Shown here: in pieces, positions 4,398 through 30,585 of the stretch
How the letters are laid out: the number at the start of each line of letters is the position of its first letter
Position numbering within the stretch: the first letter of the stretch is position 1
Assembly: GCA_017436605.1 (NCBI GenBank)
Contig: JAFSCW010000069.1
Coordinates: 1 to 34,880, forward strand
Origin: Clostridia bacterium
GTDB lineage: Bacteria; Bacillota; Clostridia; Christensenellales; Aristaeellaceae
Length of the DNA stretch: 34,880 nt
Direction: 5' to 3'
Notes under the pieces: generated by a model
Seen by the model: the letters and a program-made list of their open reading frames with translations, nothing else
Told to the model about the DNA's origin: nothing
Database searches by the model: none
Position numbers and translations under genes: made by a program

Positions 4398-5582
4398 ATG
4401 AGCAACATGAACGAAGTGTCCAAGAAGTTTCCGATGATGCCGATTGCACCGCTTGGCATTATCGCGATGCGCGGCTGCGAGGAAATGGGAAAGGCCGTCA
4501 ATGAATACCTGACCAGGTGGCAGGTGGACAATGCGACTGACGAGATGCTGCACAGCTTTTATGGCTCCGAGGCGAACGGCTTCCTGATTAACGCAACCTG
4601 TCCGCGTTTTGGCACCGGCGAGGGCAAGGGCATGCTGCTGGATTCTGTTCGCGGCTATGATCTGTATATCATCTGCGACGTCGGCGCATATCAGTGCACC
4701 TATAAGCTCTACGGCAAGGAGATTCCGATGACGCCGGACGAGCACTATGCCGATCTCAAGCGCCTGATTGCGGCCGCCAGCGGCAAGGCCAAGCGCATCA
4801 ACGTCATCATGCCGATGCTCTACGAAGGCCGTCAGCATCGCCGTACCGCGCGTGAATCCATGGACTGCGCGCTGATGCTGCAGGAGCTCGTCGCGATGGG
4901 CGTTTCCAACATCATCACCTTCGACGCGCATGATCCGCGTGTGCAGAATGCGATTCCGCTCAACGGCTTCGAAAGCATCATGCCCACCTATCAGATGCTC
5001 AAGGCGATGTGCTCGACTTACAGCGATCTGAAGATCGACAAGGATCACATGATGGTCGTCTCCCCGGATGAGGGTGCGATCGGCCGCAATATCTATTACA
5101 GCTCCGCGATGGGCGTGGATCTGGGCATGTTCTATAAGCGCCGCGATTACACCCGCGTGGTCAATGGCCGCAACCCGATCGTCGCGCATGAGTACATGGG
5201 CGTCGACGTGGAAGGCAAGGACGTCTTCGTTGCGGACGACATCATCGCTTCCGGTGATTCCATCCTCGATCTGGCTTACAACCTCAAGAAGCGCGGCGCC
5301 AAGCGTGTTTTTGCCGGCGCGACCTTTGCGTTCTTCACGAGCGGCCTGGACGCGTTCAACAAGGCGTACGCAGAGGGCGTGATTGACCACGTCTTTGCGA
5401 CCAACCTGACCTATGCTTCTCCGGAAGCGCTCGCGGCGCCGTGGTTCACGCAGGCGGACATGAGCAAGTATATGGCCTTTGTCATCGCGACGCTCAACCA
5501 TGATCAGTCTATCAGCTATCTGCTCGATCCGTGGAAGCGCATTGAGAAGCTCCTCAAGAACTACCGCGAGAACCAGAAGTAA
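4398..5582 (+). CDS. prs: Ribose-phosphate pyrophosphokinase (PRPP synthetase), long form
   Basis: Makes 5-phosphoribosyl-1-pyrophosphate from ribose-5-phosphate and ATP for nucleotide, histidine, tryptophan and NAD synthesis in the cytoplasm. ATG 4398 is preferred over the in-frame GTG at 4368; AAAGGG lies about 12 bases upstream, slightly long, and ATG 4407 is an alternative. The 394-residue product is clearly longer than the usual ~315 residues and belongs to a variant common in Clostridia, with extra sequence between the N-terminal half and the active site. Visible motifs are FDAHDP (about 175-180), VSPDEGAIGR (221-230), the FYKRRDYTR flexible-loop region (245-253) and the PRPP-binding loop VFVADDIIASGDSILD (276-291). 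Strong C-ending codon bias suggests high expression. It is flanked by its own promoter and terminator. Confidence 0.93.
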   Translation: MSNMNEVSKKFPMMPIAPLGIIAMRGCEEMGKAVNEYLTRWQVDNATDEMLHSFYGSEANGFLINATCPRFGTGEGKGMLLDSVRGYDLYIICDVGAYQCTYKLYGKEIPMTPDEHYADLKRLIAAASGKAKRINVIMPMLYEGRQHRRTARESMDCALMLQELVAMGVSNIITFDAHDPRVQNAIPLNGFESIMPTYQMLKAMCSTYSDLKIDKDHMMVVSPDEGAIGRNIYYSSAMGVDLGMFYKRRDYTRVVNGRNPIVAHEYMGVDVEGKDVFVADDIIASGDSILDLAYNLKKRGAKRVFAGATFAFFTSGLDAFNKAYAEGVIDHVFATNLTYASPEALAAPWFTQADMSKYMAFVIATLNHDQSISYLLDPWKRIEKLLKNYRENQK

Positions 5583-5601
5583 TTCAGCCGCAAGGCTCAG
5601 C

Positions 5602-5630
5602 AAAAGGAACGGCAATACCGTTCCTTTTTT
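5602..5630 (+). terminator. Intrinsic terminator after prs
   Basis: AAAAGGAACGG (5602-5612), loop CAATA, CCGTTCCTTTT (5618-5628), then more T. Confidence 0.9.
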
Positions 5631-5645
5631 GTTTCCGGGCAGAAG

Positions 5646-5671
5646 AAAACCCCCTGCAGATCTGCAGGGGG
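5646..5671 (-). terminator. Intrinsic terminator of the DUF3048 gene
   Basis: A perfect 22-bp palindrome (5650-5671, centre AGATCT) followed on the reverse strand by TTTT. It lies 29 bases beyond the stop codon and back to back with the prs terminator. Confidence 0.82.
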
Positions 5672-5699
5672 CTTTGCGCGTTTTGAAATTTCTGAAATA

Positions 5700-7004
5700 T
5701 CAGCCGCCGAAGGAGATGTCGCCTTCCTCCTCGACGTTCATCGCCGGGGCCGGAGTCGCCTTCGCAGCACGCGGGGTGCGGGTCGGCTTCGGGGTGCGGG
5801 TCGGCTTCGGAGTCGCGGTCGGCTTCGGAGTCGCCACAGCGGTGCCGCCCTCGATGGACTCGGAAGCGCTGACGACGACTTCCTGATCGTTGTTGACGAT
5901 CTGGATGAAGGTCTTGCCGGGCTTCATTTCGAGCTCGTTGCCGTTGTCGTCGAGGAAGACCATGCGGCTGGACAGGGAAGCGAACTCATCGGCCTTGTTG
6001 GCGTCGTGGGTACGCACCCAGGTGCCGCGGATGTACTTGCCGTTCTGGAAGATCTCGGCAGTACCCTGACCGACCAGCTGGATGACCGGACGCTGCTGCG
6101 CGCCGTTGAACCAGGAAACGTCGGTACGCAGAACGATCACGTTGGCATAGGCGGTCGCCATGCCGTTGAGCGCGTCGTAGTAAGTCTCGCCATTGCGGTA
6201 GCGGTCGTACAGGCCGGTCATCTCGTTGTACCTGTAGGTGGAGATGTAGGCCGGCTTGGTGGTCTTGTAGTTGATGGTGATCTCGGAAACGTCCGTGCCG
6301 TGATCAAGACCGGTATCGGTGAACTTGAACGGATGCATGGCCGGCTCCTCGGTGAAGAGCGCTTCAACGGCCTTCATGTCGATCTGGACGTTGTGCGGCG
6401 CGACATGCTCGCCGTCCTTCTCGCGGTGGAACAGGTCGGCGTAGTTGCGCTCGGTGCCTTCGATGAACGGGAAGACCCAGCGGCCCTTCTGGCGGGCGTC
6501 CGGATGCAGGTGAGTCGCCCAGTTGACAACGTCAACCACGAGGTTCTCGCCGCGGAACCAGGTCTGCCAGCCGTAGAAGATCCAGGCGCTGCCCCACATT
6601 TCGCGCAGGGAGCCCATCGGAACGCGGGCGGAGCGGACCGGGCCGGCATAGGCCGGAATCTCGCCCATGAACAGCGCGAAAGAACGGGTGGAACCATCGG
6701 CCTGAATGGGCATTTCGTAGATGATGTCCGCAGAGGAAACGCCCCAGTGCGGCAGGGCTTCCGGATGCGCGTCGATGTTGACGCCGATCGGATAGTAACG
6801 GCCATACCATGCTTCGCCAGTCAGCGGGTTGATGCCGTCCTGAGCGGGATTCTCATCCGGGACAGCAACCGTGATATCCATAGAAGAAGCGATGCCATCC
6901 GTCGGAAGAGCGAGATAATAGGAACCTTCTGCAGCGGCCACGCCGGTCACGGCCAGGCAAAGCATCAGAGCCGCAGCAAGGATCCACTTGATCGTGCTGT
7001 GCAT
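5700..7004 (-). CDS. Exported DUF3048 domain protein with Pro/Thr-rich C-terminal tail
   Basis: A 434-residue secreted or surface protein of the DUF3048 (YerB-like) family, biochemical function unknown. The ATG at 7004 has GGAGGT 7 bases upstream. Residues 1-25 form a Sec signal peptide (MHSTIKWILAAALMLC..., cleavage near GVAAAEG). No convincing lipobox cysteine is present, so unlike the B. subtilis YerB lipoprotein it is probably not a lipoprotein. The family core shows NPLTGE, then PIGVNIDAHPEALPHWG, SADIIYEMPIQADGSTR and GPVRSARVP (about residues 55-135), and a second domain with TDVSWFNGAQQRP and the late GTWVRTHDANKAD. Residues about 385-420 are TPKPT repeats, like the linkers of the SH3b protein at 1424, which suggests a shared wall-spanning style. 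It is a monocistron. Confidence 0.88.
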   Translation of the reverse strand: MHSTIKWILAAALMLCLAVTGVAAAEGSYYLALPTDGIASSMDITVAVPDENPAQDGINPLTGEAWYGRYYPIGVNIDAHPEALPHWGVSSADIIYEMPIQADGSTRSFALFMGEIPAYAGPVRSARVPMGSLREMWGSAWIFYGWQTWFRGENLVVDVVNWATHLHPDARQKGRWVFPFIEGTERNYADLFHREKDGEHVAPHNVQIDMKAVEALFTEEPAMHPFKFTDTGLDHGTDVSEITINYKTTKPAYISTYRYNEMTGLYDRYRNGETYYDALNGMATAYANVIVLRTDVSWFNGAQQRPVIQLVGQGTAEIFQNGKYIRGTWVRTHDANKADEFASLSSRMVFLDDNGNELEMKPGKTFIQIVNNDQEVVVSASESIEGGTAVATPKPTATPKPTRTPKPTRTPRAAKATPAPAMNVEEEGDISFGG

Positions 7005-27268: not shown

Positions 27269-28054
27269 ATGGATAGGGTTCGGGTAGTCGTTGCGGACGA
27301 CAATGCGCAGTTGAGGGAAACGATTCAGGCGTTTTTGTGCCAGCAGGAGGGGATAGAGGTACTCGGCACCGCTGCAAATGGGATTGAGGCGATTAAGCTG
27401 ATTGAGGAAAGCGAGCCGGATGTTCTGATCTGTGATATGATCATGCCTCAGATGGATGGATATGCTGTTTTGGAACGGTTGAGTGAAATGAATCTGAAAC
27501 GCCGTCCCGGCGTGATTGCGCTGACTGCACTAGGACGAGATGATTTTGTTGCCAGGGCTGTGAATCTGGGCGTCTGCTACTATATGATTAAGCCGTTTGA
27601 TTATATGCTGCTGACTCAGCGGGTATATGAAGCGGCTGGAGCCGGGATTCAGGCGGAACGGATTGGCGACCGCATGCGCCGTGAGCGCGAGGCGGATCCT
27701 GCGGAAAGCCTTGAGGAACGCATCGCCAATCTGTTTCTGACCGTTGGCATCCCCGCCCACATCAAGGGATATCAGTATCTGCGCGAGGCGGTGAAGATGG
27801 TGATCGACAATCCCGACCTGATGGGACGGATCACAAAAGAGCTCTATCCCGGCATCGCACACCGGTTTGGCACGACCAGCAGCAAGGTAGAAAGGGCGAT
27901 CCGGCATGCTATAGAGGTCGCGTGGAACCGGGGACGAATCGAGGCGCTTGACGAGGCGTTCGGACGAAATGTGTGCAGTTTGGATGATAAGCCGACGAAT
28001 GGGGAGTTTATCGCGCTGGTCAGTGATAGGCTTAGAATTAAGGAATCTGCGTAA
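27269..28054 (+). CDS. spo0A: Stage 0 sporulation protein A (Spo0A), master response regulator
   Basis: The DNA-binding response regulator that commits the cell to sporulation when phosphorylated. The ATG at 27269 has CGGAGGA 7 bases upstream; the in-frame TTG at 27242 has none. The product is 261 residues, the family length. Receiver domain: acidic pair D10-D11, phospho-acceptor D56 in LICDMIMPQMDG, T86 and K108 in MIKPFDYM. The linker is charged (about 125-150). The C-terminal effector domain carries the strongly conserved YLREAVKMVIDNPDLMGRITKELYPGIA and the recognition helix SSKVERAIRHAIEVAWNRG. In many genomes spo0A follows spoIVB; here it follows yunB. A low-GC island with a recombinase begins right after it, and no strong terminator is visible. 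Confidence 0.98.
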   Translation: MDRVRVVVADDNAQLRETIQAFLCQQEGIEVLGTAANGIEAIKLIEESEPDVLICDMIMPQMDGYAVLERLSEMNLKRRPGVIALTALGRDDFVARAVNLGVCYYMIKPFDYMLLTQRVYEAAGAGIQAERIGDRMRREREADPAESLEERIANLFLTVGIPAHIKGYQYLREAVKMVIDNPDLMGRITKELYPGIAHRFGTTSSKVERAIRHAIEVAWNRGRIEALDEAFGRNVCSLDDKPTNGEFIALVSDRLRIKESA

Positions 28055-28143
28055 TAGCTCAAAAAGTGGGATATCGGGCTAGAAGGGGAGTGAATTTTTC
28101 TTTTAAAAACCAATAAAAATGACCATAATCCAATGAATAAAAT

Positions 28144-28165: not shown

Positions 28166-28247
28166 GGTCGATAAATTGCTTTATCTCTCATAATTAAAAA
28201 TCGGGCCGACGAAGAACCTGTTTGTCGGTTTGAAGGGAGAAAAGCTT

Positions 28248-29234
28248 ATGAATATAGAAAAGATGATCGGTGTCTACGTCGAATACTGCCGCAGTGAAAT
28301 GCTGCGTCCAAAGACCATAGAGGCCTATAAGCAAGGGCTATATCTCTTCGCGGCATGGCTCAAGGAGAATGAAAACGTCACAGACTTTGAAGCCGTGAAA
28401 GACGTCATGATCCGGCGATACATGCTTGATCTGCAGAACAGAGGCAAGTATACATTCTCCGCAGACAGAAAGCAGGAGATGATCAACTGTCCGACGCATC
28501 GCCGTGATTATAATCAGAAGCTCAGCAACATCACGATCAACAATTATCTCCGATATATCCGCACGTTCTTTGCATGGCTGCTTGAGATGGAGTATATCGA
28601 GAAGACACCCATGAAGAAAGTGAGGCTGCTCCCGCAGGAACGGCCTCCCAAAGAATATTTGGAAGATTATGAGGTCAAGCGGCTGCTGCAAGTGCTGAAC
28701 ACAGATTTGTTTGTGGAGTACCGGGACAAGACGGTCATGATGATTATGCTTGACAGCGGCACAAGGTTGGGAGAGACACTTTCGGTTGAAACGGAGCAGA
28801 TTGATTTGATGGAGAAGTCGATCCTGCTGCCTGCTGAAAAGACAAAAGGCCGCAAGACGCGGACAGTGTTCTTTTCTCAGAAAACAGAAAAGGAACTGCG
28901 TAAGTGGCTCAAATACAAAGAGCGTTACTGCAGTTCCGATTATGCATTTCCGATCCGAAGCACTGGGCGGCCCATGACTGTTTCGCAGTATGGCACGAAT
29001 TTCAGAAAGTATGTGGTCAGGGCCGGGATTACGAAGAAGGTATCGCCGCATACTCTGAGAAATAACTTTGCAAAGCGCTGCTTGCTCAGCGGCATGGACA
29101 TCTACACACTTAGCCGCATTCTAGGTCATTCAAGTGTGAAGGTGACGGAGAGAAACTATCTTGACGTCAAGGATGAGGAATTGAAGGAGAAGTATCTGGA
29201 GCATAGTCCGATCAACAATATTTATCATAGGTGA
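28248..29234 (+). CDS. Tyrosine recombinase (phage integrase family)
   Basis: A 328-residue site-specific recombinase of the XerC/D-integrase superfamily. The ATG at 28248 has AGGGAG 8-9 bases upstream, behind a CCGAC/GTCGG hairpin (28205-28227). Residues 5-115 are the SAM-like core-binding domain, followed by a linker rich in E/K/P (RPPKEYLEDYEVKRLLQ). The catalytic set is complete: R173 in SGTRLGE, K200 in AEKTKGRKTR, H268-x2-R271 in SPHTLRNNF, H294 in LGHSSVKVT and nucleophile Y304. It therefore should be active. The length and absence of an arm-type N-domain suggest a Xer-like or small-element integrase. Codon use is lower in GC than the chromosomal genes. It is followed by a terminator and by a set of 22-bp-spaced repeats. 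Confidence 0.92.
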   Translation: MNIEKMIGVYVEYCRSEMLRPKTIEAYKQGLYLFAAWLKENENVTDFEAVKDVMIRRYMLDLQNRGKYTFSADRKQEMINCPTHRRDYNQKLSNITINNYLRYIRTFFAWLLEMEYIEKTPMKKVRLLPQERPPKEYLEDYEVKRLLQVLNTDLFVEYRDKTVMMIMLDSGTRLGETLSVETEQIDLMEKSILLPAEKTKGRKTRTVFFSQKTEKELRKWLKYKERYCSSDYAFPIRSTGRPMTVSQYGTNFRKYVVRAGITKKVSPHTLRNNFAKRCLLSGMDIYTLSRILGHSSVKVTERNYLDVKDEELKEKYLEHSPINNIYHR

Positions 29235-29241
29235 ATTGAGG

Positions 29242-29270
29242 GGAGAAGCTTGAGGGCTTCTCCTTATTTT
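29242..29270 (+). terminator. Intrinsic terminator after the recombinase
   Basis: GGAGAAGC (29242-29249), loop TTGAGG, GCTTCTCC (29256-29263), then TTATTTT. Confidence 0.87.
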
Positions 29271-29327
29271 CGTCTACAGAACAAGCAATCAAGGTGTAAT
29301 GAACTTAGAATCTTCTTTAAATCATCT

Positions 29328-29388
29328 TTGACGCATCTGCGAAACAAGATTGACGCAACTTCTGAACATCTTTGGATCAACTTTTGAA
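29328..29388 (+). repeat. Three imperfect 17-bp direct repeats with an exact 22-bp period
   Basis: The units start at 29328, 29350 and 29372: TTGACGCATCTGCGAAA, TTGACGCAACTTCTGAA and TTGGATCAACTTTTGAA. Each is separated by 5 bases. A degenerate fourth unit (TTAGAATCTTCTTTAAA) may start at 29305. A spacing of two helical turns places the sites on one face of DNA, as for iterons or integrase arm sites. The period is not a multiple of three, so they are not protein repeats. Confidence 0.65.
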
Positions 29389-29472
29389 GGCATGCGCAGG
29401 GAAGGTGTGTTTACAACATACATCAGGCTGAAGAAAAAGGAAAGATTATAAAAACATGTACCATTAAAGTGA

Positions 29473-29500
29473 CTGGACAAAGGAGGCGCTGTTGTATACT
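29473..29500 (+). promoter_or_regulatory. Promoter of the paralog pair
   Basis: CTGGAC (29473-29478), 16-bp spacer, TATACT (29495-29500). Confidence 0.55.
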
Positions 29501-29509
29501 GTGATCACA
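29500..29509. repeat. Palindrome TGTGATCACA at the -10/start region
   Basis: A perfect 10-bp palindrome that begins at the last base of the -10 box and covers the expected transcription start, a typical repressor position. It is short, so chance is possible. Confidence 0.4.
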
Positions 29510-29577
29510 ACGAAGGGAACAAAACCTTCAAACAAAAAACGACAGGGGCAAGCCCCGGAAAGAAAGAGGAAAGCATT

Positions 29578-30066
29578 ATGACTACCATCCAGATTAACCA
29601 CAAGAACAGCACCATCGAGATGACCAAAAAGTTCTACACCGAATCCTGTAAGTACGGTTCGGAAGCGTACAAGGCGCTTCAGGAAGTCCGCCGCGATTAT
29701 CCCGGTTATAAGCCGGTCGTTGCTAAGACCAAGAAGAGCGGCACGAGCGACCCTTTCAAGGGCCTGAACTACGAGTACATGGAACTCTACATTATGAAGC
29801 ATGACGATGAAGAGCAGAGCATCATGGCTGAATTCAAGATGCTACGTGCAGAGGATGATTTGTCTCTGGCGATGGATGCGGAGTCGGAATCCTATCTGAC
29901 GATTCGCAACTGGTTCCTTGAGCAGTATCCGGCAGTCCGCGAGTTCCATGAGAAGCGTGAACAGGTAGTCGGCAATATCCGTATGAAGAAGGAAGCGGAA
30001 AGACTGGCGAGGCTGGAGGCTGCGAAGAACGCCCGCCGTGAAAAGCTGCTGGCCCTGATTGCGTAA
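29578..30066 (+). CDS. Protein of unknown family, first of a tandem paralog pair (A)
   Basis: A 162-residue soluble protein I do not recognise. The ATG at 29578 has GAGG about 8 bases upstream. The N-terminus reads IQINHKNSTIEMTKKF, a probable beta-hairpin, followed by a helical core: EAYKALQEVRRDYPGYKPV (about 29-47), FKGLNYEYMELYIMKH (about 60-75) and YLTIRNWFLEQYPAV (about 106-120). The last ~40 residues (MKKEAERLARLEAAKNARREK) form a basic helix that its paralog lacks. There are no membrane segments, signal peptide or catalytic motif. The same three core motifs recur in the gene 31 bases downstream, so the pair arose by tandem duplication. It stands in a recombinase island with its own promoter and a possible operator. 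Confidence 0.8.
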   Translation: MTTIQINHKNSTIEMTKKFYTESCKYGSEAYKALQEVRRDYPGYKPVVAKTKKSGTSDPFKGLNYEYMELYIMKHDDEEQSIMAEFKMLRAEDDLSLAMDAESESYLTIRNWFLEQYPAVREFHEKREQVVGNIRMKKEAERLARLEAAKNARREKLLALIA

Positions 30067-30097
30067 CTGAGTGAGAGATAATAGGAGGATATGAATT

Positions 30098-30520
30098 ATG
30101 AAGAATACGCTGAAGCTGAATCATGAGAACCGCACCATCGTGATGGACCGCACGTTTGCCAAGCGCTCTGAGAATACCCGCAGTGAGGAATATGCGCATC
30201 TTCAGCAGGTTCGTCAGGACTATCCGACGTATGAGGTAATCAGGCGTCAGATTAGGACGAATCCCAAGAAGGAAAGCTACAAGGGCCTGACCTATGAATA
30301 CATGGAGGACTATATCCTGACCCATGGCAGCGCGGAAGACATCCGAAAGAATCTGGCAGAATATGAAGAACTGCTTCTGTTGTCCGAGTGCCATAGCCGC
30401 TCCCGTCGCTATCCGGCTATTAAACGTTGGTTCTTGGAGATGTATCCGGAAGTTGTTACCTACGGTTCTGCTGAAGAGAGGCCGAAGATTCTTCAGATTG
30501 GAGAAAAGAGAGCATCTTGA
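30098..30520 (+). CDS. Protein of unknown family, second of a tandem paralog pair (B)
   Basis: A 140-residue paralog of the preceding gene. The ATG at 30098 has TAGGAGGA about 8 bases upstream; the out-of-frame ATG at 30091 gives only a short stop-bounded read. Matching segments are LKLNHENRTIVMDRTF (3-18), EEYAHLQQVRQDYPTYEV (30-47), YKGLTYEYMEDYILTH (60-75) and YPAIKRWFLEMYPEVV (105-120). By eye about a third or more of positions are identical, with near-equal spacing, so both share one fold. The shared sets NH-x-N-x-TI-x-M, DYP-x-Y, KGL-x-YEYME-x-YI and I-x-x-WFLE-x-YP define the family. It is co-transcribed with gene A and ends at a strong terminator. Confidence 0.8.
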   Translation: MKNTLKLNHENRTIVMDRTFAKRSENTRSEEYAHLQQVRQDYPTYEVIRRQIRTNPKKESYKGLTYEYMEDYILTHGSAEDIRKNLAEYEELLLLSECHSRSRRYPAIKRWFLEMYPEVVTYGSAEERPKILQIGEKRAS

Positions 30521-30552
30521 AAAATAGAATAAAACTTCCATCCCATATTCCG

Positions 30553-30585
30553 AGACGAAGACCAGTTTGGTTCTTCGTCTTTTTA
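30553..30585 (+). terminator. Intrinsic terminator after the paralog pair
   Basis: AGACGAAGA (30553-30561) and TCTTCGTCT (30572-30580) with a 10-base loop, then TTTTTAT. Confidence 0.9.

Follow-up and report, generated by a model that had tools for sequence, protein, structure and literature searches.

What do two small adjacent genes of no named family, here called A and B, contribute to the inserted DNA at whose end they lie? The pair was found downstream of a recombinase gene in the window, the whole stretch of 34,880 nucleotides of a Clostridia bacterium contig that was analyzed (Table 1). Elements of this kind are referred to below as islands, and two or more adjacent members of the A/B family as an array.

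Table 1. Positions of features in the window and in related island loci
Feature	Sequence	Position	Strand	Remarks
spo0A	window	27269-28054		host gene at island end
Left end of inserted element	window	28046-28060		at spo0A stop codon; comparison of window, G005 and G026
Tyrosine recombinase/integrase	window	28245-29234	+	329 aa; Pfam Phage_integrase E 8e-33; PHROG integrase E 5e-50
Recombinase gene terminator	window	29240-29270	+	11-pair stem, T-rich tail; -16.4 kcal/mol
Conserved non-coding stretch, recombinase to A	window	29298-29480		two TTGACGCA repeats; aligned with G003:C134
Operator-like inverted repeat near -35	window	29458-29473		GTA-N10-GAC here; GTC-N10-GAC in relatives
-10 box TATACT	window	29495-29500	+	aligned with invariant-position TATAAT of 39 relatives
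Palindrome TGTGATCACA over predicted transcription start	window	29500-29509		window-type copies only
5' leader	window	29507-29556	+	hairpins 29512-29529 and 29545-29556; -14 kcal/mol, z -3.68
Protein A, first gene of pair	window	29578-30066	+	162 aa
Protein B, second gene of pair	window	30098-30520	+	140 aa
Terminator of A-B unit	window	30552-30584	+	strong hairpin and T-run; -16.2 kcal/mol, z -3.95
Restriction-modification genes downstream of arrays	L153; L152; L111; L120; L149; L106	12944-18261; 11195-15568; 10516-12078; 1204-5019; 9543-13789; 5246-8260
Second family, 70-110 aa	L152; L111; L113; L066; L155	1703-1936; after 6690; after 7564; 5466-5723; (none given)
90-aa coiled-coil-like protein	L162; L163; L128	~5200; ~4790; ~12350	L128 minus

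The A-B unit and its family

The frames of A and B are open, have good start contexts, and run in the same direction, with 31 bases between the A stop and the B start and an AGGAGG ribosome-binding site for B at 30083-30088. Because the recombinase gene before them has its own terminator and the pair ends in a strong one, A-B was taken to be a separate transcription unit; this agrees with the first-pass annotation, whose interval of 29473-30585 matches the extent of the unit. The terminator behind B was also found to be kept in the copy of another genome, G003. All four blocks that the annotation had described as shared (NHxNxTIxM, DYPxY, KGLxYEYMExYI, and IxxWFLExYP) were present in both proteins, which align by BLASTP at 37% identity over 118 aa (E 2e-23); by sequence, A and B are true paralogs, a chance likeness being excluded. 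When the window, G003, and G007 were compared, B displayed 26-31 synonymous and 1-4 non-synonymous changes (dN/dS 0.008-0.03), while the dN/dS of A was 0.09-0.30. Judged by these ratios, both are functional proteins and B is exceptionally constrained, being under extreme purifying selection; the near-invariance of B points to a strongly selected function.

The first-pass annotation could name no family for the two proteins, and profile searches gave the same result. A and B matched no known family in Pfam, PHROGs, or NCBIfam, and 25 family members searched against Pfam, NCBIfam, PHROGs, and PADLOC returned scattered weak single-member matches (those to PADLOC models at E 0.002 or worse) and no recurring family. 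The best PDB-profile match, homeobox NANOG (E 0.09-0.11), was judged to be chance.

Genome searches yielded 109 distinct family sequences, restricted to Clostridia in the genomes sampled: the family was present in 7 of 100 relatives, in 36 of 250 genomes of the window's taxonomic family, and in four other genomes of a class-level sample. It was absent outside the window's own genome from a 398-genome phylum sample, and viral contigs, phages, and plasmids held no relatives with the queries tried. Members were found in tandem at 43 of 50 loci, a count reduced by the many contig ends and possible mis-binning of arrays in sequences that come nearly all from metagenome-assembled genomes. The proposal of a real two-gene system held up against these loci, as isolated single genes with no mobile context were not the prevailing arrangement. 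Two array types were distinguished: (i) the ordered A-B pair, which is the type of the window; and (ii) an ordered 1-2-3 triplet.

In a tree of the 109 members, gene position tracks phylogeny. A-type first genes and B-type second genes of pair loci group separately, and in triplet loci the second genes cluster, the third genes cluster, and the first genes are spread over several clades; the short length of the proteins leaves the deep branches with only partial support, and tree supports, like E-values, are as output by the tools. Same-order A-B pairs occur in three taxonomic families by tool numbering (f1, f49, and f107). Since A and B each have same-order orthologs in other Clostridia families, the sequence comparison identifies A-B as an old, ordered operon and not a recent duplicate. 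The pairing is not strictly obligate, as in G005 a 90% identical A is kept and B is reduced to a relic.

The AlphaFold2 model of A, built with 25 family sequences, predicts a compact and confident fold (pLDDT 91.8, pTM 0.64) of two strands, two helices, a strand, and three helices, to which A adds a long C-terminal helix; the model of B (pLDDT 85.4) resembles it. Foldseek and VIA-align searches with the two models revealed no convincing solved or viral counterpart (best VIA Z 3.9 and 3.2) and no fold match to a nucleic-acid-binding domain, a result that for predicted models neither proves nor excludes a new fold. The strongly conserved positions (A numbering) were found to be hydrophobic (F19, A23, M68, I72, Y106, W112, and F113) or polar/basic (K17, S28, R38, and K/R110), the family alignment held no conserved His/Cys/Asp catalytic set, and the family cores are basic (median pI 8.8-9.3). 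With conserved residues that are structural or basic, no catalytic set, and basic cores, a binding protein is favored over an enzyme, and binding of DNA or RNA would be compatible with these features.

Promoter and 5' leader of the arrays

No TTGACA-type -35 was found upstream of A. Most arrays are preceded by TATAAT, always 10 bases ahead of TCACAAGGTTGAG (39/39), and transcription is predicted to start at the A of TCACAAGG, assuming the usual spacing from the -10 box. The roughly 20 bases from this predicted start onward are conserved (ACAAGGUUGAGRGAARCA), unlike the -35 hexamer, and an exact GTC-N10-GAC was found near -35, in one of two positions, at 17 of 44 leaders. The palindrome that the first-pass annotation had noted over the transcription start is present in the window, but its standing as a conserved operator was rejected outside the close clade: TGTGATCACA is limited to close window-type copies (L025, L026, L028, and L045), and other arrays read TATAATNNAGTCACAAGGTTGAG at this position. 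Thus, the conserved feature is the -10 box with the transcript start and not the palindrome.

The window leader was identified as a diverged two-hairpin homologue of the conserved ACAAGGTTGAGRGAARC leader. Leaders (n = 44) fold better than shuffled sequences (mean z -2.2), and the left arm pairs with a partner of at least 5 bases in 92% of cases versus 56% in shuffles; no RNA family of Rfam matched at the leader. An exact scan of 84,980 genomes detected the leader on 14 contigs, 10 of which also have family members, the named carriers being gut and rumen metagenome assemblies of Clostridia, including Christensenella sp. UBA4379 and Oscillospiraceae. Family members were found in 15 of 19 leader genomes compared with 36 of 250 overall (Fisher p 3e-11, not corrected for shared ancestry). 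As the leader also stands before other small island genes, it marks an island regulon.

Among the 14 exact leader matches, the clearest exception was L074 (JAUNJJ010000108.1, 603-700), where the leader precedes a hydroxylamine reductase (Hcp)-like gene outside any array. At L071 (CAMOHW010000072.1, 994-1016, minus strand), a leader region near-identical to that of L072 is followed by unrelated sequence with no family member; L071 is probably a truncated island. Other genes were recorded near the leader. These include (i) a second unnamed family of 70-110 aa (MKK.VK...IKA.AANGNDRTV... and relatives), often first after the leader and just before the arrays; (ii) a 90-aa coiled-coil-like protein (MSATEIQSKARELKELKTMKEELEAEIAAIED...), recurrent in islands and preceded by the leader or a close copy; and (iii) very acidic 160-aa proteins of no named family, under the same leader beside arrays (L029 8125-8610 and L153 10489-10971), which could be DNA mimics.

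A leader and operator-like repeats before family members and other small island genes would lead one to expect a common regulator, and in p576 an autoregulated repressor holds such a role (PMC8708921). The A/B and 1-2-3 proteins might themselves be transcription or RNA regulators that recognize the repeated promoter/leader and set how strongly the early genes of the island are expressed, including their own. We consider this unlikely, as the proteins have no recognizable HTH, RHH, or other DNA-binding fold, 4 of the 19 leader-bearing genomes have no detected family member, and two or three paralogs in fixed order are unnecessary for a regulator. The repeats could also be read in terms of recombination, with the arrays as exchangeable gene cassettes and the leader as the recombination site of the recombinase. 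Leader repeats do flank successive genes, and the L071 and L072 leader regions diverge after near-identity. Counter to this reading, the genes keep an order and identity set by position, conservation sets in precisely at the predicted start of transcription together with an invariant -10 box, and A-B units have no leader between A and B, so that we give it only a very slight chance of being correct.

Island ends, integrases, and cargo

The window, G005, and G026 were found to be near-identical from GCGTAATAGCTCAAAAAGTGGGAT on, despite differing 3' coding ends of spo0A. The sequence after spo0A is unrelated in genomes of the genus without the recombinase, and relatives of the recombinase lie directly after spo0A in 6 of the 20 spo0A-positive genus genomes. 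By this comparison, the inserted DNA starts at the spo0A stop codon and continues with the recombinase, A, and B. Neither exact nor fuzzy searching with the spo0A 3' end located a right-hand attachment site in the window, and the downstream genes of the window gave no translated match to element-free spo0A neighborhoods. The copy in the window appears to be a reduced remnant that has kept the recombinase, A, and B intact. In G026, a spo0A-adjacent copy of the element (L044, G026:C11, near 8035) has a 99% identical recombinase and is missing A-B; its match to the window ends at position 29430, beyond which the sequence looks like that of an insertion-sequence transposase.

The association with integrases that the first-pass annotation had suspected was found to recur. 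At 24 of the 45 loci with enough upstream sequence, a tyrosine integrase is encoded 141-1424 bases ahead of the first family gene, on the same strand as the array or on the other one, and arrays sit at the 3' ends of housekeeping genes, namely spo0A, a GGGtGRT gene, and lysS (names read from the sequences). In G003, the A-B unit and 280 upstream bases are 90% identical to the window and lie beside the GGGtGRT gene, a different chromosomal site, without the recombinase; the non-coding stretch upstream of A, aligned there, thus moves with A-B. Comparison of the loci establishes the family, its gene order, and its mobility.

This location raises the alternative that A and B are recombination directionality (excision) factors for the adjoining integrase. 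Like excisionases, they are small proteins encoded beside a tyrosine integrase at an island end, and a conserved non-coding stretch separates the integrase from A. Unlike excisionases, they have no sequence or fold match to such factors (none in Pfam, NCBIfam, or PHROGs, though these factors are very diverse), and their ordered sets of two or three paralogs, unusual for an excisionase, are common to different integrases. Moreover, both array classes were found next to integrases of the short XerD-like and of the long kind, whatever the orientation, the distances among arrays correlated only weakly with those among integrases (rho 0.20, Mantel p 0.009), and G003 has A-B without an integrase; we therefore regard an excision role as quite improbable.

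The genes that recur behind arrays were found to encode serine recombinases (11 loci), an unnamed 250-aa protein (10), a DEAD-like helicase (9), ArdC (8, Pfam-confirmed), and winged-helix-like proteins (5). Type I, III, or IIG restriction-modification genes were detected in all six islands tested, a few kb downstream of the arrays. The anti-phage activity once suggested for the pair is not supported by these comparisons, as no PADLOC family recurs among the members and the variable defense cargo of the islands is separate from the arrays. A related alternative is that A and B are paired anti-defense (e.g., anti-restriction) proteins that shield the incoming island and are functionally akin to ArdA/ArdC. 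It draws on the position of A-B in a co-regulated cluster at an island end, on the true ArdC genes in eight loci, on the restriction-modification systems that host elements carry and encounter, and on the precedent of anti-defense islands with shared promoters (PMC11541004; PMC8708921). Weighing against it, the cores are basic, unlike acidic DNA mimics, B is near-invariant, unlike arms-race proteins, the ordered A-B or 1-2-3 sets differ from a mosaic of unrelated inhibitors, and no match to anti-defense families was found in the libraries used. We judge an anti-defense function to be rather unlikely.

Proposed role and nearest precedents

The mobile location, the early promoter with a protected 5' end, the ordered paralogs, the basic non-enzymatic fold, and the strong selection best support a role in establishing or controlling the island. 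At a probability of roughly 0.4, A and B would be non-enzymatic, nucleic-acid-binding subunits in an integrase-proximal establishment/control module of gut Clostridia islands; that they are part of how the islands establish or control themselves is probable, with the biochemical activity being what we infer from the features above. When the island enters or is activated, the promoter with the fixed -10 box would fire, and the 5' end of the message would fold into hairpins with a probable role in its protection or regulation. Both proteins would be made from this one message and would act jointly, probably binding nucleic acid as a mixed oligomer, with the island's own ends or origin, or the leader RNA, as candidate targets; such binding may help the island settle or may control its genes. 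Weighing against this proposal are the ArdC genes that were checked, which are without the leader, the lack of a fold match to a nucleic-acid-binding domain, the absence of PF03432 and PF02534 from the array contigs, and the B relic in G005. A bolder version, in which A-B and 1-2-3 form a new multi-paralog nucleic-acid-binding machine of unseen fold, expressed early from a 5'-hairpin message, that lets restriction-modification-carrying islands establish in Clostridia, appears doubtful.

This compact family, without a name or solved fold, and its dedicated leader are a mark of many integrative islands by which restriction-modification systems are spread through Clostridia of the gut and rumen, and the protein profile and leader provide a search handle for this island class. 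If the proteins are establishment or anti-defense factors, they would be Clostridia examples of factors known so far chiefly from plasmids of Bacillus and Proteobacteria.

In layout, the nearest precedent is the establishment regulon of the Bacillus plasmids p576 and pLS20, in which a common upstream regulatory sequence serves several small operons of mostly uncharacterized genes, operators are placed near -35 and in some cases just past the start, two short 5' inverted repeats are proposed to lengthen RNA life, and an anti-restriction gene lies within the cluster (PMC8708921). As in these plasmids, one regulatory sequence stands before several operons, the arrays of relatives having as many as five leaders and the window a single diverged copy. 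Unlike the plasmids, the A-B element is chromosomal with an integrase, its leader sequence is different, and its array genes all belong to one paralogous family and keep a fixed order. No leader match was found before ArdC in the scanned loci, unlike the anti-restriction gene of p576/pLS20, and neither of the two conjugation families searched for, the PF03432 relaxase and the PF02534 coupling protein, was found on the array contigs, themselves incomplete, of 26 genomes. Membership in this regulon is not claimed, since the searches placed no ArdC gene behind the leader and found neither conjugation family. The second comparison is with the anti-defense islands of leading regions, where early genes are clustered and Frpo single-stranded DNA promoters occur (PMC11541004). 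A promoter of the Frpo type was rejected for the arrays (mean z -0.6; -10 box mostly unpaired, with a mean pairing of 0.34 across 44 leaders), and the arrays, unlike Frpo islands, hold no known anti-defense gene family. Like those islands, the arrays display early genes clustered at one end of a mobile element behind repeated special promoters.
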